From NCBI GenBank assembly GCA_944390355.1, contig CALXPT010000013.1, positions 1 through 47,995 of the forward strand: a stretch of DNA of 47,995 nucleotides. Direction: 5' to 3'. The notes under the pieces were generated by a model, which saw only the letters and a list, made by a program, of their open reading frames with translations, did not search any database and was not told the DNA's origin. Positions 3,607 through 40,542 of this stretch are shown here, piece after piece. Made by a program: the position numbers and the translations under genes. How positions within the stretch are numbered: position 1 is the stretch's first letter; every line of letters starts with the position of its first letter. The DNA is from an uncultured Alphaproteobacteria bacterium. GTDB taxonomy: Bacteria > Pseudomonadota > Alphaproteobacteria > RF32 > CAG-239.

Positions 3607-3685
3607 TGCAACAAATTAAGAGCAACTTTGATTTTTTTATGCAAAACAATTCGTGCAAACCCTTGTCCAGCCTCGAAAATTTCTA

Positions 3686-3714
3686 TTGAAAGGATTTTTT
3701 TCTTGTGGTATAAT
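3686..3714 (+). promoter_or_regulatory. Sigma-70-type promoter of cassette A
   Basis: TTGAAA (3686-3691) and a perfect TATAAT (3709-3714) are 17 nt apart. The same promoter with the same spacing lies in cassettes B and C. The leader to the first ATG is about 40 nt and carries CGAGGTG as ribosome site. This predicts strong housekeeping-sigma expression of each copy. Confidence 0.85.
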
Positions 3715-3761
3715 ACGAGTCGTGGAGACAAATGTAATTAGAACTTTTTACGAGGTGTATT

Positions 3762-4625
3762 ATGATGAAAAAGGGTTGCCTTTTGCTGTGTGCTACAGCA
3801 TTAAGCTTGGCTTGTTTGGATAATCAAGTTCAGGCATCAATTAATTTTAATCTAAAAGCACCTCCCGTTCCGAGCTATGCTAAATTACACACATCGCATA
3901 CTTCACACCTCATAGCTCGACATTTGTCTCCCGAGAGTTTTAGGGAGAGACAAGAAATCAAGGTTGCGCAGGTTTGTTGGATTTTGGATACCGAAGACTG
4001 CGGCGGGGCGGACTTTGTCGGTACCGATGGAACGCAAGGCACACCGCCTGAGATTCTTCCTCCGGGAAATGGTGATTATAAAGAAAGCTGTACCGAAATG
4101 GGCTATGGCAAAACCTCATGTCCGACAGGGTATAAACCAGACAAATTCTGCCCGTTAGATAACAAATATTTTGCCGAATGTGTACAGGACTGTCCGAGTG
4201 ATTACAAGACCTGCGAACCGCCATTAAAAGGTGTCGGAGAGGTTTGCGGCAATGATTTGTATGAAGACTGCTGTAATCCGTCATGTTCGGCAGAATATCA
4301 ATATAGCTTAGATGAAATTCCCTCTGGTTATGAAGCAGACGGTGAACCATGCAAATCTTGTGATGGCGACTTATACAAAATCAAAAAGAAAGACTGCACC
4401 GGATATTTGGATTGCGGGGAAATGGGCTGCGAGGACGGGGCTTCAACCTGCCAAAGCGGAAATCAGGTCAAGTGTTCGGAATGCAAAAAATGCCCGAACC
4501 TAGGTACAGAATCAGAATGTCCGCCGTGCACAGTCTGCAGCTTTGAGGAATGTTCAAACTTATACATCGTGACGGGATGCAAAGTTGGTTGTACTGATTA
4601 TTGCAACTATTGCGCTTCTGAATAA
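3762..4625 (+). CDS. Cys-rich exported protein, cassette A
   Basis: 287 residues with a signal peptide (MMKKGCLLLCATALSLACLD, probable cut after QVQA). The mature part holds about 29 cysteines in short modules: CTEMGYGKTSC-PTGYKP-FC, CPSDYKTCEPPLKGVGEVC, EDCC, and a dense tail with SECKKC, PPCTVC, FEEC and YCNYC. Such spacing implies a disulfide-stabilised extracellular protein. A His/Ser-rich stretch (HTSHTSHLIARH) follows the signal. ATGATG at the start allows either Met. It is the first gene of a two-gene unit, 41 nt before the DUF1566 gene, and the pairing is kept in all three cassettes, so the products probably act together at the cell surface. No known enzyme motif is seen and the function is unknown. 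Confidence 0.8.
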   Translation: MMKKGCLLLCATALSLACLDNQVQASINFNLKAPPVPSYAKLHTSHTSHLIARHLSPESFRERQEIKVAQVCWILDTEDCGGADFVGTDGTQGTPPEILPPGNGDYKESCTEMGYGKTSCPTGYKPDKFCPLDNKYFAECVQDCPSDYKTCEPPLKGVGEVCGNDLYEDCCNPSCSAEYQYSLDEIPSGYEADGEPCKSCDGDLYKIKKKDCTGYLDCGEMGCEDGASTCQSGNQVKCSECKKCPNLGTESECPPCTVCSFEECSNLYIVTGCKVGCTDYCNYCASE

Positions 4626-4666: not shown

Positions 4667-6013
4667 ATGAGAAAGATTTTATTAATGAGTTCGGCTTTGG
4701 TGGTGTTGAGTGGCACGGCAGGAGCCGGATGTATCCAGACACCGAGTTGCTCTTCTTTGGGATATACCTCAACCTCGGCTTGTGAAGGTGGGTTAAAATG
4801 CCCGTGGGGGAACGCTTGGTTTTGTAATGTCGGCGGTGGTGGAAGTGGTTCAAATCCTGATTATAGCAACTGCAAAATCGGTGATATTTTGTATTCAGAT
4901 ATGAGCTGCAACAGCAATGTTGTTGCTCCCAAAACCCCAATCGGCGTGGTGTTTGATACAACCAATGGTTTGGCCATAGCTAAAGATGAGTTTGCAAATG
5001 TTCCTTGGGGCGCTGTCGTGGAAGATGTGTCTGGGGTACAAAACTCAAGCAGTGTTTCAACCTCAGCGGCTGATTGGCAAGGATTTAACAATACCAAAGC
5101 AATGTATGAGGCAGATAAATCAGGGTATAATTATCCGGCGATTAAAAAGGTTTTGACATATTCAACAACAGGAACAGAACAAGGACAATGGTATTTGCCG
5201 GCGGCGGGCGAATTGCAGGCAATCTCGACCAACAAAGATACTTTGAATACAACATTATCAAAAATCGGCGGAACACAGATGTCGGGTAACTATTGGTCAT
5301 CATCGGAACAAAACAGTGGCAGCAGCTACTATATTGGTATAGGGAACAATAGTAGTAGTACAGGAAGAAAGATTGCTAAAAACAAAGCAAAACCGGTGAT
5401 AAATTTTGGTAGCAAGAATAAGACAGATTTTGCTTATAACAATGGTGGAACTGTTGTTACATGTAGGATTGGTGATATTTTATATTCAGATAAAAAATGT
5501 TATTTAGGCGGAATGTTAGCAGGAAAAACGCCGATAGGTGTTGTGTTTGATGTTAGTCGGCGTACGGCGATAGCCTTGGAAAGTTCGCCTTCAAAAATGG
5601 AATGGGGTGGTTATGGAACGGATATTCCAGGGATAACGAATATAACGGATACAACGCAAGCTAAACAAGACTTCAGCGGTAAGGCAAATACGGCAGCGAT
5701 AAAAGCGAAGAATAGTAATTTGTCGAAGTATCCTGCCGCAAAGTATGCGTATGAATATAAAACCACCGGCACCAATGCTGGAGATTGGTATTTGCCGGCT
5801 TTGGGTGAGTTGAATACAGTGTATAGTAATAAGGACTATATGAATTATGCGTTGTCATTGGTGGGTAAGAAGGATATTCCGATAGAATGGCATTGGTCTT
5901 CTTCCGAGTATTCAAGCGACTACGCGTGGAATTTGAAGTTCAGTGACGGGCACGTGTTCAGCGACGTTAAGGCCGGCTATAACGGTTACGTTCGTCCAGT
6001 CCTAGCTTTTTAG
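4667..6013 (+). CDS. DUF1566 (C-type-lectin-like) exported protein with hypervariable C-terminus, cassette A
   Basis: 448 residues from the ATG at 4667, chosen because GGAGG sits just upstream and a signal peptide follows at once (MRKILLMSSALVVLSGTAGA); an in-frame ATG at 4628 has neither. Order: signal; Cys module CIQTPSCSSLGYTS; Gly/Ser linker; DUF1566 domain 1 (NCKIGDILYSDMSC...GQWYLPAAGELQ...YWSSSE...KPVINF); DUF1566 domain 2 ending HWSSSE...GYVRPVLAF. These domains have the fold used by known DGR target proteins. The last ~25 codons before GYVRP differ sharply from the sister genes and are almost all NNY. Secreted or surface ligand-binding protein is the likely role; the ligand is unknown. 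Confidence 0.85.
   Translation: MRKILLMSSALVVLSGTAGAGCIQTPSCSSLGYTSTSACEGGLKCPWGNAWFCNVGGGGSGSNPDYSNCKIGDILYSDMSCNSNVVAPKTPIGVVFDTTNGLAIAKDEFANVPWGAVVEDVSGVQNSSSVSTSAADWQGFNNTKAMYEADKSGYNYPAIKKVLTYSTTGTEQGQWYLPAAGELQAISTNKDTLNTTLSKIGGTQMSGNYWSSSEQNSGSSYYIGIGNNSSSTGRKIAKNKAKPVINFGSKNKTDFAYNNGGTVVTCRIGDILYSDKKCYLGGMLAGKTPIGVVFDVSRRTAIALESSPSKMEWGGYGTDIPGITNITDTTQAKQDFSGKANTAAIKAKNSNLSKYPAAKYAYEYKTTGTNAGDWYLPALGELNTVYSNKDYMNYALSLVGKKDIPIEWHWSSSEYSSDYAWNLKFSDGHVFSDVKAGYNGYVRPVLAF
5891..6013 (+). other. Putative DGR variable region (VR-A)
   Basis: A 123-nt 3' block begins with an 18-nt string (CATTGGTCTTCTTCCGAG) shared with the other two copies and ends with a shared 31-nt string that runs through the stop to 6014. 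The 25 codons between (5909-5983) encode YSSDYAWNLKFSDGHVFSDV then KAGYN. Invariant among copies are S2, A6, W7, L9, F11, G14, V16 and K21. The variable codons are of NNY type. Third bases differ from copies B/C at several sites, so VR-A may have come from a different template. Confidence 0.75.
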
Positions 6014-6111: not shown

Positions 6112-9100
6112 CTACCATGTGTATCCCAAACCGCCCTCAATATTCCAACTTTGGTAATCTTCACCTAAAGTATATCCTGTAGAGGCATAAGCATTCCAAC
6201 GGTTATTGAGGCTAAGGCTTCCTCCGACGGCCAAACGTCCGAGCGTCATATTATCCAAAGCCTTCGTCGCTTGCAGCGAGCTGACTTGAATATCCCCCTT
6301 TCCGATAGTTTGAATAATGCTGGGCTTAATATAGAGTTTAGCCTTGCTGTATTCATACATAAATGTTTTTTCGGCCTTAATTCCCGCTTCAAAAGACAAC
6401 TCATTGATATCATCAAATTGTACGGTTTTATCTAAGTTATCATGAATGTTATCATAGTCAATTTGTGTATAAGCGACTTTGAGAGAAGGTGTCAACAACA
6501 CACTGTCGCTGAGCGCAATCGAGTGTCCGCCTTCAATACTTCCGCCGAATTCAAACCCGTCAACATCTTCGGAAACCATACCGTCATCTGTTTGAATTTT
6601 AGCTTTTTGAAGTCCGCCGAACACGGTTGTCATCAACCACCAAGGCCCGCGGTCATAGCGGTGATAAAGACCCAAGACATAGCTGTCGATATCAATTTCG
6701 GTTCCGTCTTTGGAATAATAGTCTTTTCCTTTTCCGCTCAAGTCGTAATTTCCTTGTCGGAAAGAAGCAAACACACCAAGCCTGTTGTTATTATTAATCT
6801 GGGCATCAATACCGCCTTCAAAACCGGAAATGTCAACATCAAATTCCGCCGGAGATTTGATTTCACCTTGATCCTGAGCGGCACTTGCCCAAGCATGATA
6901 AAGAATGTCTCCGGTATAATTGCAGTCATAAGAACTGTTGCACATTGGATAATAAATCTTAGCCGAAGCAACACTGTCGGTAACATTTTGCGTCAAAGAA
7001 CGTGTTTGCTCAATAGCGGCAACCGGAAGAGACAAATAACCCAAAGCTTCAGGATAAAGTTGAGTATCGCTATCACCTCCGGTCGGCAAGTCGCCATATC
7101 CGTTATCATTACTATCGCCGATAACATTATCCGTACCGGTGTACCAAATATTGTCGGCATAATAAATATTCCACACATGAGCATCGCGCATAACGCGAGT
7201 AACTTCAAAATAGGCCGCCGTGTCTAAGTTATCATTAAGAGCTTCAACAAAAGGTACTTTTTTTGTAACCAAATTATCATCGGAAGGATTAATGATAACG
7301 CCGGTTTTGCCCTGTACATCACCTTGAACGATGAGCATATCGGCAGTATTGGTTGCCGTATCAACATCAATAGTCATGGTTGCATTGTTTTTGGCGACAT
7401 AATTTCCTGTAACGGTCGTAATATCATCCGCACTGTCTCCGCTGTGAGAGAAGTTAACCGAACCGTTATTCACCAAATTGCCGTCAATAGTATAGTCGGT
7501 AGGAGAGTTTCCCGATAAATTAAGTTCACTGCCGTTCATGATATTAATATTTTGGCTTCCGTCTTTATCCATAAGAATGTCTTTTTCAATTTTAAGAACG
7601 GCACCATCCGCAACATCAATTTCTTGCCAACCGGCAAGGGAGTTAGCCGTTGTTTTTCCGAGTTCATAACTACCACCGGATAAAACCAACTTTTTATTTT
7701 TGGCATTATTAAGTAAAGAACTTTCGTTCAAACCTGCGTTTAAGCCGCCGACAAGAGTAAGCGAACCGTCGCCGTCGGCCGAACCGTCATCTTTGAATAT
7801 TTGGGAAAAATCATAGCTACCGCTGAGATTAGCCTGAGCATCAATAATAACATCACCGTTCAAAGTCGTGCCGTTTTCAAGTTGCAAATTAGAATTAGCT
7901 TGCGCCTCAAGATTATTAATAAGCGTCTGAGTTTGAGCAATCAAACTTCCGCCGGCCGTAATAATGGCATTATGAACTTCACCGTCGTTCAAATTTAAGG
8001 TATAATCAATTTTAGATAATTCTTGCCCGTTAATGGTATTAAAAAATACGCGACCGGAATTAACATCCATGGTTTTGATGTTTTCCAGAGTGTTGTTGAA
8101 AACAACAGAAGAGTTTTCATCACCGGTAACCGTAATTTTGCTGTTATTATTATTTTCAAGCCAGCGAATACCGTCATCAAATTGCACCAAACCGCCGTTA
8201 ACAGCTTCGAGTTTAAGTTCGGTATCATCTAAAGCGATAGCCTCTGATTTAGTAATATCTCGTCCATCATCACCTTTGTAAGTAACTTTATTTCCGCGGA
8301 AGATAGAAGTACCTTGCGCACCTTCGGCACGAACGGTTAAGTCTTTAGAGGCAAAAATAGCACCGCCGCCGACATCTGTCTGCAAAGAAGAAGCATCTTG
8401 TGAAGTTTTAACGGTATTATTGTAAAAGTTGTTATTGGTTAAGACAAGGGTTCCCGAGTTATGAATGGCACCGCCGGCTGTTTCGGCAGAATTATTGATA
8501 AAATCGCCGTCAATATTCCCACTCCAAGTTCCGTAATTTTGAATGGCACCGCCGGAAACAGCTGAATTTCCGATGAAATCGCCATTGATATTTCCTGTCC
8601 AGTTTTGTGAATTGACGATAGCCCCGCCGTTCATACCTGCAGTATTTCCGATGAAATCGCCATTGATATTTCCTGTCCAGTTTTGAGTGTTGACGATAGC
8701 CCCGCCGGCAATCTGCGCCGAGTTAGCAATAAAGTTTCCGTTAGTTTCTCCATTCCAAGTACCGCTGCCGTTATCAATGGCACCGCCGGTAATAGCTTGG
8801 TTGCCGATAAAATCACCGACCATATGGGTGTCCCAAGTGCCGAAATCGTTATAAATAGCACCGCCGGAATAAGCGATATTGTTGATAAAATTTCCGTAAA
8901 TATTATTGATGTTTCCTTTGTCGTTATTATAAATAGCCCCGCCATAAACATAAGCAGAAACATTTTTGGCATCATTAATATTATAATCTAAATAGTTTCC
9001 GATAAAATCGGCATAAATATCGCCGATATTTCCGTTGTTATAAATTGCACCGCCTTGAACATATAAGTCTTTGGTATCAGAGGCATCACCGCCGGTATAA

Positions 9101-9660
9101 GTTAGGAAAGTTTGGTTGTTTTGAATAATTTTTTTATCATCAACAGAGCCGATATCACCATAATCAACGCTGTCACCAACATTTAAGTACGCCCCTCCCT
9201 CATAATAAGTTCCCTCATCGGCAGGAACGGTCGATACATTGACTTGAGATTTTTGCCCCTGAGTATCATCAATTTTATATTCGATTTGAGCAAAAGGAGT
9301 ATCTTTGTTTGGTAGTTTGACGTCAATGACCTGAGTTGTACCATTTTCATCTCCGCCGTAATCTTTTGCGTGAATATCAATTTTATAATATTCATCGACA
9401 ATATTTCCGCTGGCTTTATCATAGGCGGGAATTTTAATAAAAGCCGGATTTTCATCGGGATTGCTGCCCAAATCGGCACTATCGACTTTTGTTAAAGTAT
9501 AGGCGTTATTTCGACTGTCCAATTGCGAGGGAAGCTGATAATTCAAAGCATCATATTCCGAAGAATTTAACACATCGGCAGCTTGAGCCACAGCCAAAGC
9601 AGAGCATGACAACAACAAAGCCGCACTCAACCCACATAAAACCGATTTACTTTTCCGCAT
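6112..9660 (-). CDS. Large autotransporter (type Va) with Gly-Asn-rich repeat passenger
   Basis: 1182 residues. The N-terminal signal peptide is MRKSKSVLCGLSAALLLSCS...AQA. The passenger carries about nine repeats built around GGAIxN and GNI(N/D)GDFI(G/N)N between residues ~195 and 430, a beta-helix type pattern, followed by further beta-helical sequence to about 880. The last ~280 residues look like an autotransporter beta-barrel with alternating aromatic strands, ending in GLGYTW with the typical terminal aromatic residue. A Cys pair (MCNSSYDC) precedes the barrel. It is expected to be displayed on the outer membrane as an adhesin or surface structure; the substrate is unknown. AGGAGG lies before the ATG. 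It is convergent with cassette A. Confidence 0.85.
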   Translation of the reverse strand: MRKSKSVLCGLSAALLLSCSALAVAQAADVLNSSEYDALNYQLPSQLDSRNNAYTLTKVDSADLGSNPDENPAFIKIPAYDKASGNIVDEYYKIDIHAKDYGGDENGTTQVIDVKLPNKDTPFAQIEYKIDDTQGQKSQVNVSTVPADEGTYYEGGAYLNVGDSVDYGDIGSVDDKKIIQNNQTFLTYTGGDASDTKDLYVQGGAIYNNGNIGDIYADFIGNYLDYNINDAKNVSAYVYGGAIYNNDKGNINNIYGNFINNIAYSGGAIYNDFGTWDTHMVGDFIGNQAITGGAIDNGSGTWNGETNGNFIANSAQIAGGAIVNTQNWTGNINGDFIGNTAGMNGGAIVNSQNWTGNINGDFIGNSAVSGGAIQNYGTWSGNIDGDFINNSAETAGGAIHNSGTLVLTNNNFYNNTVKTSQDASSLQTDVGGGAIFASKDLTVRAEGAQGTSIFRGNKVTYKGDDGRDITKSEAIALDDTELKLEAVNGGLVQFDDGIRWLENNNNSKITVTGDENSSVVFNNTLENIKTMDVNSGRVFFNTINGQELSKIDYTLNLNDGEVHNAIITAGGSLIAQTQTLINNLEAQANSNLQLENGTTLNGDVIIDAQANLSGSYDFSQIFKDDGSADGDGSLTLVGGLNAGLNESSLLNNAKNKKLVLSGGSYELGKTTANSLAGWQEIDVADGAVLKIEKDILMDKDGSQNINIMNGSELNLSGNSPTDYTIDGNLVNNGSVNFSHSGDSADDITTVTGNYVAKNNATMTIDVDTATNTADMLIVQGDVQGKTGVIINPSDDNLVTKKVPFVEALNDNLDTAAYFEVTRVMRDAHVWNIYYADNIWYTGTDNVIGDSNDNGYGDLPTGGDSDTQLYPEALGYLSLPVAAIEQTRSLTQNVTDSVASAKIYYPMCNSSYDCNYTGDILYHAWASAAQDQGEIKSPAEFDVDISGFEGGIDAQINNNNRLGVFASFRQGNYDLSGKGKDYYSKDGTEIDIDSYVLGLYHRYDRGPWWLMTTVFGGLQKAKIQTDDGMVSEDVDGFEFGGSIEGGHSIALSDSVLLTPSLKVAYTQIDYDNIHDNLDKTVQFDDINELSFEAGIKAEKTFMYEYSKAKLYIKPSIIQTIGKGDIQVSSLQATKALDNMTLGRLAVGGSLSLNNRWNAYASTGYTLGEDYQSWNIEGGLGYTW
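8566..8685 (-). repeat. Direct DNA repeat inside the autotransporter passenger
   Basis: A 42-nt string at 8566-8607 recurs exactly at 8644-8685, a period of 78 nt (26 residues, the GNINGDFIGN unit). Neighbouring units are similar but diverged. Slippage or recombination here would add or remove whole repeats in frame. Confidence 0.8.
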
Positions 9661-17192: not shown

Positions 17193-17274
17193 GTGTGTAA
17201 ACGGCAATAAAAGAGTCAATTTTTTTTATGCAAAACAATTCGTGCAAACCCTTGTCCAGCCTCGAAAATTTCTA

Positions 17275-17303
17275 TTGAAAGGATTTTTTTCTTGTGGTAT
17301 AAT
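17275..17303 (+). promoter_or_regulatory. Sigma-70-type promoter of cassette B
   Basis: TTGAAA (17275-17280) and TATAAT (17298-17303) with a 17-nt spacer, identical to the cassette A promoter including the spacer. Confidence 0.85.
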
Positions 17304-17350
17304 ACGAGTCGTGGAGACAAATGTAATTAGAACTTTATGCGAGGTGTATT

Positions 17351-18223
17351 ATGATGAAAAAGGGTTGCCTTTTGCTGTGTGCAACAGCATTAAGCTTGGC
17401 TTGGTTGGATAATCAAGCTCAAGCATCAATTGGTTTTAATCTGAAAGCACCTCCAGTTCCGAGCTATGCTAAATTACACACATCACACACTTCACACCTC
17501 ATGGCTCGACATTTGTCTTCGCCGAGTTTTAGCGAGCGGCCGGAGGTTAAGGTTGCGCAGGTGTGCTTTATCACCGATACGGAAGATTGCGGCGGGGCGG
17601 ACTTTGTCGGTACCGATGGAACGCAAGGCACACCGCCGGACGTACTTCCCCCAGGGGATGGTGATAGCTGTATCAAAATGGGATATAAAAAGACCGCCTG
17701 CCCACAAGATTATAAGCCGAATAAATATTGTCCGTTAAACAGCATCTACTTTGCCGAATGTATTCCCGATTGCCCGAGTGATTACAAGACCTGCGAACCG
17801 CCATTAAAAGGTGTCGGAGAGGTTTGCGGCAATGATTTGTATGAAGATTGCTGTACCCCGACTTGCGGTGATGAATATAAATATGACGCAAGCAATGTTC
17901 CGGTCGGTTATGAGTTGGTCGGCGAGCCTTGCATGGCCTGTGAAGACGGCGGCTCAAAAGCAAAATACAAAGACATTGAAGAAAAAGATTGTACGGGGTT
18001 TGTTGACTGCGGCCTATCGGGGTGCAAATCGGGAACACCGACTTGCCAAAGCGGCAGTCAGATTAAGTGTTCGGAGTGCGAACCTTGTCCGAACTTAGGT
18101 ACGGAGAGTGAATGCCCGCCGTGCACGGTTTGCACATTTGAAGAATGCTCGAATTTATACATCGTCAGCGGTTGCAAAACGGGGTGTACGGATTATTGCG
18201 ACTTCTGCGCTTTTGAACAATAA
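17351..18223 (+). CDS. Cys-rich exported protein, cassette B
   Basis: 290 residues, paralogue of the product at 3762-4625. Signal peptide MMKKGCLLLCATALSLAWLD, processing near AQA. The first 100 and last 60 residues are nearly the same as copy A (CPSDYKTCEPPLKGVGEVC, CPNLGTESECPPC, ECSNLYIV). The central part is reworked (DEYKYDASNVPVGYELVGEP, CMACEDGGSKAKYKD), yet cysteine spacing is kept. This mosaic pattern suggests gene conversion among cassettes. A cell-surface or secreted role is likely; the function is unknown. Confidence 0.8.
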   Translation: MMKKGCLLLCATALSLAWLDNQAQASIGFNLKAPPVPSYAKLHTSHTSHLMARHLSSPSFSERPEVKVAQVCFITDTEDCGGADFVGTDGTQGTPPDVLPPGDGDSCIKMGYKKTACPQDYKPNKYCPLNSIYFAECIPDCPSDYKTCEPPLKGVGEVCGNDLYEDCCTPTCGDEYKYDASNVPVGYELVGEPCMACEDGGSKAKYKDIEEKDCTGFVDCGLSGCKSGTPTCQSGSQIKCSECEPCPNLGTESECPPCTVCTFEECSNLYIVSGCKTGCTDYCDFCAFEQ

Positions 18224-18264: not shown

Positions 18265-19620
18265 ATGAGAAAGTTTTTATTATATTCATCGGCTTTGGTG
18301 GCTTTTGCGATGAGCGGCGTGGCTGAGGCTGCTTGCATTCAAACCCCGAATTGTACCACACTGGGCTATACCTCCACCACGGCCTGCGAGGGCGGATTAA
18401 AATGCCCGTGGGGTAACGCTTGGTTTTGTAATGTTGGTGGCGGTGGCAGCGGTTCAAATCCTGATTATAGCAATTGCAAAATCGGTGATATATTGTATTC
18501 GGATATGAGCTGTAATGCGAATATGATTGTATCTAAAACGCCAATCGGTGTGGTGTTTGATACTACCAATGGTTTGGCCATAGCTAAAGATGAGTTTGCA
18601 AATTTGGTTTGGGGAGCTGTCGTGGAAGATGTGTCTGGGGTACAAAACTCAAGCAGTGTTTCAACCTCAACGGCGGATTGGCAAGGGTTTAAAAACACCA
18701 AAGCAATGTATGAGGCAGATAAATCAGGTGTGAATTATCCGGCGATTAAAAAGGTTTTGACATATTCAACAACTGGAACAGAACAGGGACAATGGTATTT
18801 GCCGGCGGCGGGAGAATTACAGGCAATCTCGACCAACAAAGACACTTTGAATACAACGTTAGCCAAAATCGGCGGAACGCAGATGTCGGGTAATTATTGG
18901 TCATCATCGGAACAAAACAGTGGCAGCAGCTATTATATCGGCATAGGAAACAATAGCAGCACTATTGGCAGAAAGCTTGTAAAAAGTAAAGCAAAACCGG
19001 TGATAAACTTTGGCAGCAAGAATAAGACAGATTTTGCTTATAACAATGGTGGAACTGTTGTTACATGTAAGATTGGAGATATCTTATATTCAGATAAAAA
19101 ATGTTATTCAGGTGGTGTCCAATCCGGCAAAACGCCGATTGGTGTTGTGTTTGATGCTAGTCGGCGTACAGCGATAGCCTTGGAAAGTTCGTCTTCTTCT
19201 GGAATAGAATGGGGTGGTTATGGGTATGATATCCCAGGGATAACGAATACAACAGATTTATCGCAAGCTAAACAAGACTTCAGCGGTAAGGCTAATACGG
19301 CAGCGATAAAAGCGTATAATAGTAGTTTGTCGAATTATCCAGCAGCAAAATATGCGTATGAATATAAAACCACCGGCACGAATGCGGGAGAGTGGTATTT
19401 GCCGGCTTTGGGTGAGTTGTATACTGTGAATAGTAATAAGGACTTTTTGAACTATGCGTTGTCATTGGTGGGTAAGAAGGATATTCCGACAGATGAACAT
19501 TGGTCTTCTTCCGAGCATTCTGATTACTATGCTTGGCTATTGCACTTCTATAATGGTGGTGTGGGCAACTACACTAAGGCCTACGCTAACGGTTACGTTC
19601 GTCCAGTCCTAGCTTTTTAG
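18265..19620 (+). CDS. DUF1566 (C-type-lectin-like) exported protein with hypervariable C-terminus, cassette B
   Basis: 451 residues. Signal peptide MRKFLLYSSALVAFAMSGVA, then the Cys module CIQTPNCTTLGYTSTTAC, a GGGGSG linker and two DUF1566 domains. Domain 1 (to KPVINFGSKNKTDFAYNNGG) is almost the same as in copy A, whereas the last 25 codons before GYVRPVLAF are scrambled relative to it (HSDYYAWLLHFYNGGVGNYT then KAYAN). GGGAGA precedes the ATG. A selectable binding surface at the C-terminus is the expected function by analogy with DGR-diversified lectin-fold proteins. Confidence 0.85.
   Translation: MRKFLLYSSALVAFAMSGVAEAACIQTPNCTTLGYTSTTACEGGLKCPWGNAWFCNVGGGGSGSNPDYSNCKIGDILYSDMSCNANMIVSKTPIGVVFDTTNGLAIAKDEFANLVWGAVVEDVSGVQNSSSVSTSTADWQGFKNTKAMYEADKSGVNYPAIKKVLTYSTTGTEQGQWYLPAAGELQAISTNKDTLNTTLAKIGGTQMSGNYWSSSEQNSGSSYYIGIGNNSSTIGRKLVKSKAKPVINFGSKNKTDFAYNNGGTVVTCKIGDILYSDKKCYSGGVQSGKTPIGVVFDASRRTAIALESSSSSGIEWGGYGYDIPGITNTTDLSQAKQDFSGKANTAAIKAYNSSLSNYPAAKYAYEYKTTGTNAGEWYLPALGELYTVNSNKDFLNYALSLVGKKDIPTDEHWSSSEHSDYYAWLLHFYNGGVGNYTKAYANGYVRPVLAF
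19498..19620 (+). other. Putative DGR variable region (VR-B)
   Basis: A 123-nt block with the same 18-nt start and 31-nt end (through the stop) as VR-A and VR-C. The variable codons lie at 19516-19590. At 14 of the 15 diversified positions the third base equals that of VR-C, while first and second bases differ freely, as expected if both were copied from one template with AAY codons. Confidence 0.78.
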
Positions 19621-38676: not shown

Positions 38677-38799
38677 CTAAAAAGCTAGGACTGGACGAAC
38701 GTAACCGCTATTGGTATTCTTATAGTTGACGCGCACATTACCATTACGGAAGTGCAATAACCAAGCATTGCCATTAGAACCCTCGGAAGAAGACCAATG
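38677..38799 (-). other. Putative DGR variable region (VR-C)
   Basis: The 123-nt 3' block has the 18-nt start and 31-nt end shared by VR-A and VR-B, although the rest of this gene is more diverged. The variable codons (38707-38781, minus strand) encode GSNGNAWLLHFRNGNVRVNY then KNTNS. Many are still AAT or AAC, so VR-C looks closest to an unmutated AAY template. Confidence 0.78.
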
Positions 38800-39531
38800 A
38801 TAATTTGTCGGTAGATATGTTCTGCCGATTTTCCCTAAAGCCGTGTTCAAAACACCCATATTACCATATATGACATTCAACTCTCCTATAGCTGGCAAAT
38901 ACCAATCTCCGGCTTTTGTTCCTTCCGTTTGATAGCTATTCACATATTCAAATGCAGGACAACTATACCCATTCGTCTTGCAATAATCCAACACCAAACG
39001 CGTATTATTTTTACCTTGCAAATCTGCTGTTACCGCTGATGATGAACCATAATTTAATAATGTCGGTACATCAAAATTTTTATCCGACCATTCTTTCAGC
39101 TCTGTATCCAACGCTATCGCTAAACGATTCGCTCGATCAAACACCACACCGATTGGCTTTTTAGACGCTACAACATTCGGATCACAACTCTTATCCGAAT
39201 ACAAGATATCGCCGATTTGACAATTACTCGACGATGCTCCGTTTTCTATTGTTACAATTTTTTCCTCTATTGTTGTTATTTTATTAGTGATTTCCGTTAT
39301 CTTATTCGTTTGTTCGGTTATTTTGTTAGTTAGCTCCGTTATTTGAGTGCTTAAATCGCTTGCTGTGCAGTTCCATGCATTGCCGAACGGGCATTTAATA
39401 CCGCCGTTACATGATTGACTGGAAGTATACCCCAAACTTGAACAACTCGGGGTTTGGATACAGGCTGCCTCAGCCGCCCCGCTCATCGTAAAAGCCACCA
39501 AAATTGTTGAATATAATAAAAACTTTCTCAT
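38677..39531 (-). CDS. DUF1566 (C-type-lectin-like) exported protein with coiled-coil stalk, cassette C
   Basis: 284 residues from the ATG at 39531, where AGAAAG lies upstream and the signal peptide MRKFLLYSTILVAFTMSGAA begins; an in-frame ATG 84 nt earlier overlaps the previous gene. Cys module CIQTPSCSSLGYTSSQSC (24-41), then a heptad repeat at about 60-97 (TELTNKITEQTNKITEIT...), then a single DUF1566 domain (NCQIGDILYSDKSC...GDWYLPAIGELN...HWSSSE...GYVRPVLAF). The coil replaces the first DUF1566 domain of copies A and B and may oligomerise the binding domain on a stalk. Confidence 0.85.
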   Translation of the reverse strand: MRKFLLYSTILVAFTMSGAAEAACIQTPSCSSLGYTSSQSCNGGIKCPFGNAWNCTASDLSTQITELTNKITEQTNKITEITNKITTIEEKIVTIENGASSSNCQIGDILYSDKSCDPNVVASKKPIGVVFDRANRLAIALDTELKEWSDKNFDVPTLLNYGSSSAVTADLQGKNNTRLVLDYCKTNGYSCPAFEYVNSYQTEGTKAGDWYLPAIGELNVIYGNMGVLNTALGKIGRTYLPTNYHWSSSEGSNGNAWLLHFRNGNVRVNYKNTNSGYVRPVLAF

Positions 39532-39565: not shown

Positions 39566-40426
39566 TTATTGCTCAAATGCACAATAGTCGCACCAGTCGG
39601 TGCAGCCGGTTGCACATCCGGTTACGATGTATAAATTCGAACATTCTTCAAACGTACAGACCGTGCACGGCGGACATTCGCTCTCTGTTCCGAGGTTCGG
39701 GCATTTTTTACACTCCGAACACAGGGTTGTATTGCCGCTTTGACAAGTGCTAGCGCCGTCCTTGCACCCCATATCGCCGCAGTCCAAAAATCCCGAACAG
39801 TCTTTCTCTTTGATTTTGTATTTTTCCTTGATTTTCAATCCGCCTTCGTCGCATTCTACACATGGTTCACCATCTACCTCATAACCGTCTGGAATTGAAC
39901 CCAATGTGTATTTGTATTCCGCCGGACACGTCGGCGTACAGCAGTCTTTGTATAACCCATTGCCGCAAACCTCTCCGACACCTTTTAATGGCGGTTCGCA
40001 GGTCTTGTAATCACTCGGACAGTCCTGTACGCATTCGGCAAAATATTTGTTATCTAACGGACAGAATTTGTTTGGTTTATACCCTGTCGGACATGAGGTT
40101 TTATTATACCCCATTTTGATACAACTATCGGCATCACCATCCCCTGGGGGAAGTACGTCCGGCGGTGTGCCGCCTTCCAAATCCGTGCCGACAAAGTCCG
40201 CTCCGCCGCAATCTTCGGTATCAGTTATCCAACAAACTTGCGCAACCTTGATTTCTTGCCGCTCCCTAAAACTCTCGGGAGACAAGTAAACTTCAGAAAA
40301 GAGGTGTGTGTGAAGTGTGTGAACAAATGTAATTTTTTCTGAAGGAAGGGAAATATCGGCTCTCACGTCCGGCGCAAAAATCGCAACCGATGATAACAGC
40401 CCAAACAACAAATAAACCTTGTTCAT
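39566..40426 (-). CDS. Cys-rich exported protein, cassette C (different N-terminus)
   Basis: 286 residues from the ATG at 40426 (AAAGGA upstream). Signal peptide MNKVYLLFGLLSSVAIFAPD then VRA, unlike copies A and B. From SPESFRERQEIKVAQVCW onward it rejoins the copy A sequence, with CPSDYKTCEPPLKGVGEVC, KDCC, SECKKC, CPNLGTESECPPC and ECSNLYIV. The mid part (KYTLGSIPDGYEVDGEP) is again individual. The abrupt change from unrelated to near-identical sequence indicates recombination within the gene. Likely secreted and disulfide-rich; function unknown. Confidence 0.8.
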   Translation of the reverse strand: MNKVYLLFGLLSSVAIFAPDVRADISLPSEKITFVHTLHTHLFSEVYLSPESFRERQEIKVAQVCWITDTEDCGGADFVGTDLEGGTPPDVLPPGDGDADSCIKMGYNKTSCPTGYKPNKFCPLDNKYFAECVQDCPSDYKTCEPPLKGVGEVCGNGLYKDCCTPTCPAEYKYTLGSIPDGYEVDGEPCVECDEGGLKIKEKYKIKEKDCSGFLDCGDMGCKDGASTCQSGNTTLCSECKKCPNLGTESECPPCTVCTFEECSNLYIVTGCATGCTDWCDYCAFEQ

Positions 40427-40466
40427 GATAAAAGTCCTTTCGATATTACTTATCTCCACGACTCGT

Positions 40467-40495
40467 ATTATACCACAAGAAAAAAATCCTTTCAA
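40467..40495 (-). promoter_or_regulatory. Sigma-70-type promoter of cassette C
   Basis: On the minus strand TTGAAA (40495-40490) and TATAAT (40472-40467) are separated by 17 nt, as in cassettes A and B. Similarity to the other copies stops about 15 nt after the -10 box. Confidence 0.85.
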
Positions 40496-40542
40496 TAGAA
40501 ATTTTTGAGGCTGGACAAGGCTTTGCACGAATTCTTTTGCAT

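Follow-up and report, generated by a model that had tools for sequence, protein, structure and literature searches.

Three genes of the window, by which we mean the whole analysed stretch of 47,995 bases, end in blocks that we interpret as variable repeats of a diversity-generating retroelement (DGR). We put at nearly nine in ten the probability that the blocks are such repeats, likely rewritten by adenine-mutagenised cDNA from a reverse transcriptase (RT) and Avd acting on about 17 genes. It corresponds to contig 13 of a draft assembly that totals 1.71 Mb over 42 contigs and has a completeness score of 100%. The original prediction that the three genes are DGR targets is supported by templates found in a congener, genome G005, and by differences confined almost entirely to template adenines. 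The relevant features are as follows.

3762..4625, + strand: partner gene preceding target gene A, unassigned in Pfam and NCBIfam
4667..6013, + strand: target gene A, 448 aa, Pfam PF07603 in 2 stretches, 52.7 bits (cut-off 34.9)
5891..6013, + strand: variable repeat A, template class T2
17351..18223, + strand: partner gene preceding target gene B, unassigned in Pfam
18265..19620, + strand: target gene B, 451 aa, Pfam PF07603, 49 bits
19498..19620, + strand: variable repeat B, template class T1
38677..39531, - strand: target gene C, 284 aa, Pfam PF07603, 38.9 bits
38677..38799, - strand: variable repeat C, template class T1
39566..40528, - strand: partner gene preceding target gene C, unassigned in Pfam and NCBIfam

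Target gene A combines a signal-peptide-like start with a Cys-rich stretch and two Lcl_C (DUF1566) stretches. Gene B is its close paralogue (300-nt stretches 81% and 89% identical), and gene C has a signal-peptide-like start, a predicted long helix and one Lcl_C domain; the signal peptides are our own reading of the sequence. A lectin-type domain had been expected in these products and is borne out by the Lcl_C matches and by the profile of the target family, which matches 4eps (E 3e-7) and HbP1 8q4e (6.3e-6), the latter titled Lcl C-terminal domain. In the structural model of gene C, with pLDDT of 80–96 over residues 101–270 and 70–86 thereafter (means of ten), a predicted long helix precedes the C-terminal domain. 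Foldseek gave this model one match at E<=0.001 (4eps), with 8q4e a weak second (2.3e-3, rmsd 14.3). Each block occupies the last codons of an Lcl_C gene and so lies at the 3′ end of a C-type-lectin-like gene, the position of a DGR target. In the available parts of published surveys DUF1566 is the most common DGR target domain (PMC6642488, PMC4159848) and adopts the C-type-lectin fold (PMC6642488). From this we infer secreted adhesins whose lectin-like tip is the part that varies.

The codon pattern that first drew attention to the three 123-nt gene ends was recomputed and stands: the first 18 and the last 31 bases are the same in all three, all 45 codons at the 15 variable codon sites are NNY, and blocks B and C have the same third base at 14 of the 15. 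The count of 17 varying codons holds at protein level, while by nucleotides 20 vary, three of them silently. Block A deviates more in its third bases (11/15 identical to B, 10/15 to C) because it follows another template. That third bases are spared, contrary to ordinary drift, is also upheld, with mismatches between B and C at codon positions 1/2/3 numbering 14/10/1; the 300 nt upstream of blocks A and B have the usual pattern of 9/8/19. The pattern is more than chance, since five equal-length T1 blocks of this genome share 34–38 of 38 third bases in pairwise comparison and 46–56 of 76 first and second bases, and the 150 nt upstream of them share 20–45 of 50 third bases. These counts bear on the suggestion that diversifying selection on a duplicated adhesin family, with no retroelement, produced the blocks. 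Selection for binding is probable among at least 17 paralogous ends, and the changes do mostly alter amino acids, but silent sites should then drift at least as fast inside the blocks as outside, and the changes track the adenines of a real template in a congener. We regard this explanation as very improbable.

A template with AAY at the variable codons and the same flanks had been predicted, and G005 contains two such A-rich repeats, with identical flanks, between avd and RT. The G005 locus runs in the order target gene, avd, two leader–template units and RT, with one RT. The RT was typed by motif, solved-chain match and family scans: it contains LPIGNLTSQ, which we take to be a DGR mark, its nearest solved chain is 8ub7 (E 6.8e-30), and it matches PHROG reverse transcriptase at 309 bits; NCBIfam models match it below their cut-offs, the best being group_II_RT_mat. 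Its neighbour matches PHROG 3206, ‘Avd protein of DGR’, at 82.4 bits and the NCBIfam Avd model at 53.7 bits, under the cut-off of 80. G005 thus holds RT, accessory Avd, template and targets, the components of a complete DGR. A phage origin of the cassette was considered and set aside: among the matches listed, no phage or viral sequence exceeds 49% identity to the RT, and close bacterial relatives, G005 itself excluded, reach 60–66%.

The two G005 templates are distinguished by the silent marks GCT/GCG and AAT/GAC. Blocks B and C follow template 1 and block A follows template 2. With the nearer of the two as reference for each block, block A differs at 19/41 template adenines and 2/74 other positions, block B at 19/41 and 1/71, and block C at 17/41 and 0/71, B and C each having one extra codon. 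Across the 17 blocks of the window's genome, differences fall at 319/696 template adenines and 58/1211 other positions, a concentration that supports the reading of adenine mutagenesis. For the 11 of 17 blocks with at most three non-A differences the counts are 199/451 and 14/790; the 19 blocks of G005 give 319/776 and 64/1372, and the 14 of them within the same limit 225/572 and 18/1011. As picking blocks by few non-A differences favours a DGR reading, full and subset counts are both given; the counts omit L089 2976, a nested match, and L090 12232, which has 37 gap columns and does not represent a block. Of the 36 blocks, the 25 that stay within three non-A differences show template A replaced by G 211 times, by T 156 times and by C 57 times, with no stop codon. 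The restriction of differences to template adenines is therefore found with the congener's templates.

The window's blocks are three of 17 dispersed over the draft genome. The search of this assembly, with a guessed all-AAY template as query, returned 16 near-full matches, one partial match (C19:3709) and 14 short and weak ones; the 17 blocks are ends of open frames, two of which are cut at their other end by the end of a contig. The same genome has 19 Lcl_C matches, some of them two per gene. The expectation of a single template repeat did not hold, as A follows one template and B and C a second, and two or more other blocks (C20:25556, C6:76613) look like members of a third class (CAG TAC TTC ... 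GTC GAC), whose template was not found. Six of the 17 blocks, these two included, have at least four non-A differences from both known templates; such blocks may belong to the third class, may have drifted as copies, or may have done both. Four blocks have 0/71 non-A differences from G005 template 1, while flanking DNA of the two genomes is 73–76% identical. Given the third bases kept within T1 blocks and these clean blocks beside diverged flanks, block copying likely continued after the genes diverged. The likeness of templates between the two species may reflect constraint or exchange.

These patterns are best explained by a model where an RT–Avd complex makes adenine-mutagenised cDNA from a template and the cDNA overwrites the blocks of about 17 genes at a distance from the cassette, which would have produced the adenine-restricted differences. 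Several templates may feed one shared pool of targets, since the close paralogues A and B follow different templates. A tree of the upstream domain was built from 26 of 36 blocks (at most four non-A differences, at least 60 aa upstream). On the best tree the T1/T2 label needs six changes, and shuffled labels need as few in 61/500 (T1) and 67/500 (T2) cases; strong support is limited to three of the 23 inner branches, which by themselves require two template changes. Template and gene lineage are tied at best loosely, which fits template switching without proving it.

Gene conversion among target genes, shuffling existing blocks with little new mutation, would be permitted by the shared flanks, and some homologues do have similar blocks on other bodies: the block of P0016 resembles that of C10, and that of P0015 the block at C20:25556, each on another gene body. 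Comparison among the 17 blocks nonetheless shows many differences at A-derived positions, and 11 of the blocks have few non-A changes; conversion leaves the restriction to adenine unaccounted for. We consider it an improbable explanation by itself; it may add to DGR action. Homologues of 250–340 aa were compared inside and outside the block (95 of fitting length, self included, from 120 listed of 1404), and all 94 of the 94 non-self proteins among these listed matches are less alike inside it than outside; P0083 seems to be without the block. A different, shorter target protein also ends in the block in L081, L090 and L176, by eye with no signal peptide, and that of L176 (G005) has 0/71 non-A differences. 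A lineage watermark, CGT for CGC near the 3′ end as a sign of activity after the split from G005, was rejected because each genome uses the two spellings side by side (12 blocks with CGT and 5 with CGC in the window's genome, 7 and 12 in G005).

The prediction that RT and template would be found in the same genome failed in the 42-contig draft. There is no RVT_1 match in the assembly, no avd match at E<=10 (with G005 Avd as the only query and no positive control), no covariance-model match to the leader at E<=0.1, and no A-rich copy among the block-search matches. Absence of RT and template had been named in advance as grounds for abandoning the DGR reading; the absence is there in the draft, but we do not count it as refutation because G005, where the machinery is present, has non-A positions no cleaner than those of this genome. 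Eight of the 11 genomes of the genus, the window's included, have exactly one RVT_1 match, as do eight of the 10 congeners. At the site of the G005 cassette, on contig 10 here, the stop of the target gene runs into the hairpin that follows RT in G005, so that this is a clean empty site in mid-contig. The relatives' second cassette site, beside genes that read as Tol-like from their sequence, lies on contig 20 and has no cassette. The leader model gives 18 weak matches in the window's genome, at 12.4–18.5 bits; 16 of them stop where a block begins and reflect the final positions of the model, which represent template start, and two lie elsewhere.

These absences, together with the empty mid-contig site, favour the view that the lineage has lost its cassette and that its blocks are fossils left recently by a DGR once active there. 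Two family genomes, G028 and G064, likewise keep leader–template units and have no RVT_1 match, and isolates of Treponema denticola with targets and no core are described in the available text of PMC4891356. The four blocks at 0/71 non-A positions count against loss, given flanks that are 73–76% identical, as does the behaviour of template arrays in assembly: in G004 and G019 one contig ends at a leader and a different contig begins with RT, and arrays can therefore break assemblies. We hold loss with fossil blocks to be possible, at somewhat below even odds. As to the cassette itself, our guess is that it went unassembled, on slightly better than even terms, or was recently lost, on slightly worse. 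G008 has a split cassette, with avd and two units on one contig and RT on another, both inside contigs. On contig 26 of G008 (L242) a third leader copy follows the two units and is shortened into an apparent terminator hairpin. Rewriting by an RT–Avd system remains our preferred reading of the blocks, and genomes judged complete may lack a cassette yet keep its targets.

In the relatives that possess the machinery, templates are organised in a manner that is new here: tandem templates each have their own conserved predicted leader fold. Among 21 RT loci of close or alphaproteobacterial relatives, 12 yield 29 leader–template units (7, 4, 3, 3, 3, 2, 2 and five single), a count that required a template start behind each leader; of the other nine, L098, L106 and L109 begin at or inside RT and so could show no unit. 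Seven of the 12 template-bearing loci have two to seven templates in tandem, each behind a covarying leader. The leader occupies about 110–145 nt ahead of each template, and the last template lies roughly 25–100 nt from RT, by eye. RNAalifold predicts 26 pairs from 28 units, 16 of them with changes on both sides, the alignment (A2) leaving out L103:1321-1447 as identical to another unit. None of 500 shuffles reaches any of five measures, and 95.7% of cells pair, which falls to 26–47% when partners are slid. The possibility that the leader is the 3′ spacer of the preceding template was rejected for this group, as a leader already stands before the avd-proximal template of the arrays inspected and none follows the last. 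Within the family, the leader is found in 21 of 126 genomes (E<=1e-4) and an RVT_1 match of any kind in 34 of 126; 19 of the 21 leader-bearing genomes also have an RVT_1 match. A hairpin lies between the last template and RT in L072 (6740-6769, terminator-like) and, by eye, in L116 and L150; it may adjust how much template RNA is made relative to RT mRNA.

The leader extends beyond these relatives. Its model matches five of five Legionellaceae loci at 40.6–43.5 bits, and 40 more distant RT loci give 19 matches at E<=0.1, all on the RT strand. Eighteen of the 19 end about 80–700 nt before the RT match, L124 being downstream, and one, L125, is alphaproteobacterial too. In an alignment of the 19 that was fitted to the leader model, 92.8% of cells pair, against 32–44% when slid, with many two-sided changes. 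Matches of 19.7–27 bits are little above the background of 12.4–18.5 bits in the window's genome, while those of Legionella (40.6–43.5 bits), L149 and L118 (32–33 bits) are clearly above it. RT loci of Bacteroidota are also matched, as are two of four phage loci (E 9.3e-5, 0.0021); the BPP-1 and LPPA56 phage loci gave no match (for the BPP-1 stretch, at E<=10). At gathering level Rfam finds only tRNA and tmRNA in 34 RT loci. The nearest Rfam family is RT-7 (RF03028), which overlaps leader-model matches in two Bacteroidota loci, L114 (64.3 bits, E 1.4e-12) and L118 (36.3 bits), below its gathering score of 116.8, and has no match at E<=1 in L072-L074; RT-9 (RF03080) scores 19.6 bits in L104 (E 1.8). 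The RT-7 and RT-9 motifs were reportedly named by Weinberg in 2017. A conserved RNA element thus stands 5′ of the template at RT loci of several phyla, outside Rfam thresholds where examined.

We take bbp7, the small upstream gene of BPP-1, to be avd. The layout of G005-type cassettes is like that of BPP-1 (AY029185), with RT, the small upstream gene, a template and a target whose 3′ end holds the variable repeat. A single template is annotated in BPP-1, directly after the upstream gene (1595/1596) and 144 nt from RT, unlike the window's relatives, in which a leader stands before each template and two to seven templates can lie in tandem. The spacer 3′ of the BPP-1 template folds and recruits RT-Avd, according to the accessible part of PMC12875486. 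A 5′ leader, set against the 3′ structured RNA of the best-studied DGR, bears on how RT and Avd find a template, and each leader may mark its template for the RT–Avd complex. Tentatively, and with less than even confidence, we propose that the leader is the recognition module of a large DGR branch, in which leader–template units are cartridges that can be lost, duplicated or, as G008 illustrates, parked away from RT. Under this proposal every target is open to overwriting by every cartridge whose flanks match, and one RT would thereby drive a genome-wide repertoire of about 20 varied lectin genes.

DGRs with several variable repeats or several templates are already known, as are DUF1566 targets and targets at a distance, from what is available of PMC6642488, PMC4159848, PMC4891356 and PMC10907252. 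In the consulted portions of the two surveys (PMC6642488, PMC4159848), 271 of 948 DGRs have several variable repeats, 216 of the 271 with one template; Stenotrophomonas SKA14 combines two templates with six variable repeats, and Pseudomonas costantinii has six templates and is termed atypical. Those portions contain no description of a structured leader repeated with each template, and no mention of Azospirillum, the name of one relative, was found in them. A leader repeated with tandem templates was not described in the literature searched, as far as its available text goes, and an earlier description is possible. Targets far from the core, as here, occur in Treponema denticola and Thiohalocapsa PB-PSB1 in the sections available of PMC4891356 and PMC10907252. 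Unlike in those two, 17 blocks here have the flanks of one template family and sister species have tandem templates. DGR target blocks accordingly reach genome scale in these small-genome bacteria, with 17–19 blocks, several templates and, in G005, one RT. Several relatives of the window's genome are recorded from animal guts, judging by record titles.

A relative of the partner gene also precedes a target gene in G005 and recurs across the window's genome, where DNA resembling the G005 partner gene is found at about 24 places, not all of which have a target gene. In the A and B modules, the 300-nt regions upstream of the partner genes (3632-3931 and 17221-17520) are 95% identical, and about 100 nt of this region has more than 20 copies in the genome; it looks like a shared promoter or leader region. 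Adjoining target gene A, on the - strand at 6112-9660, is a gene for a 1182-aa protein with GGAI-type repeats that reads like an autotransporter.
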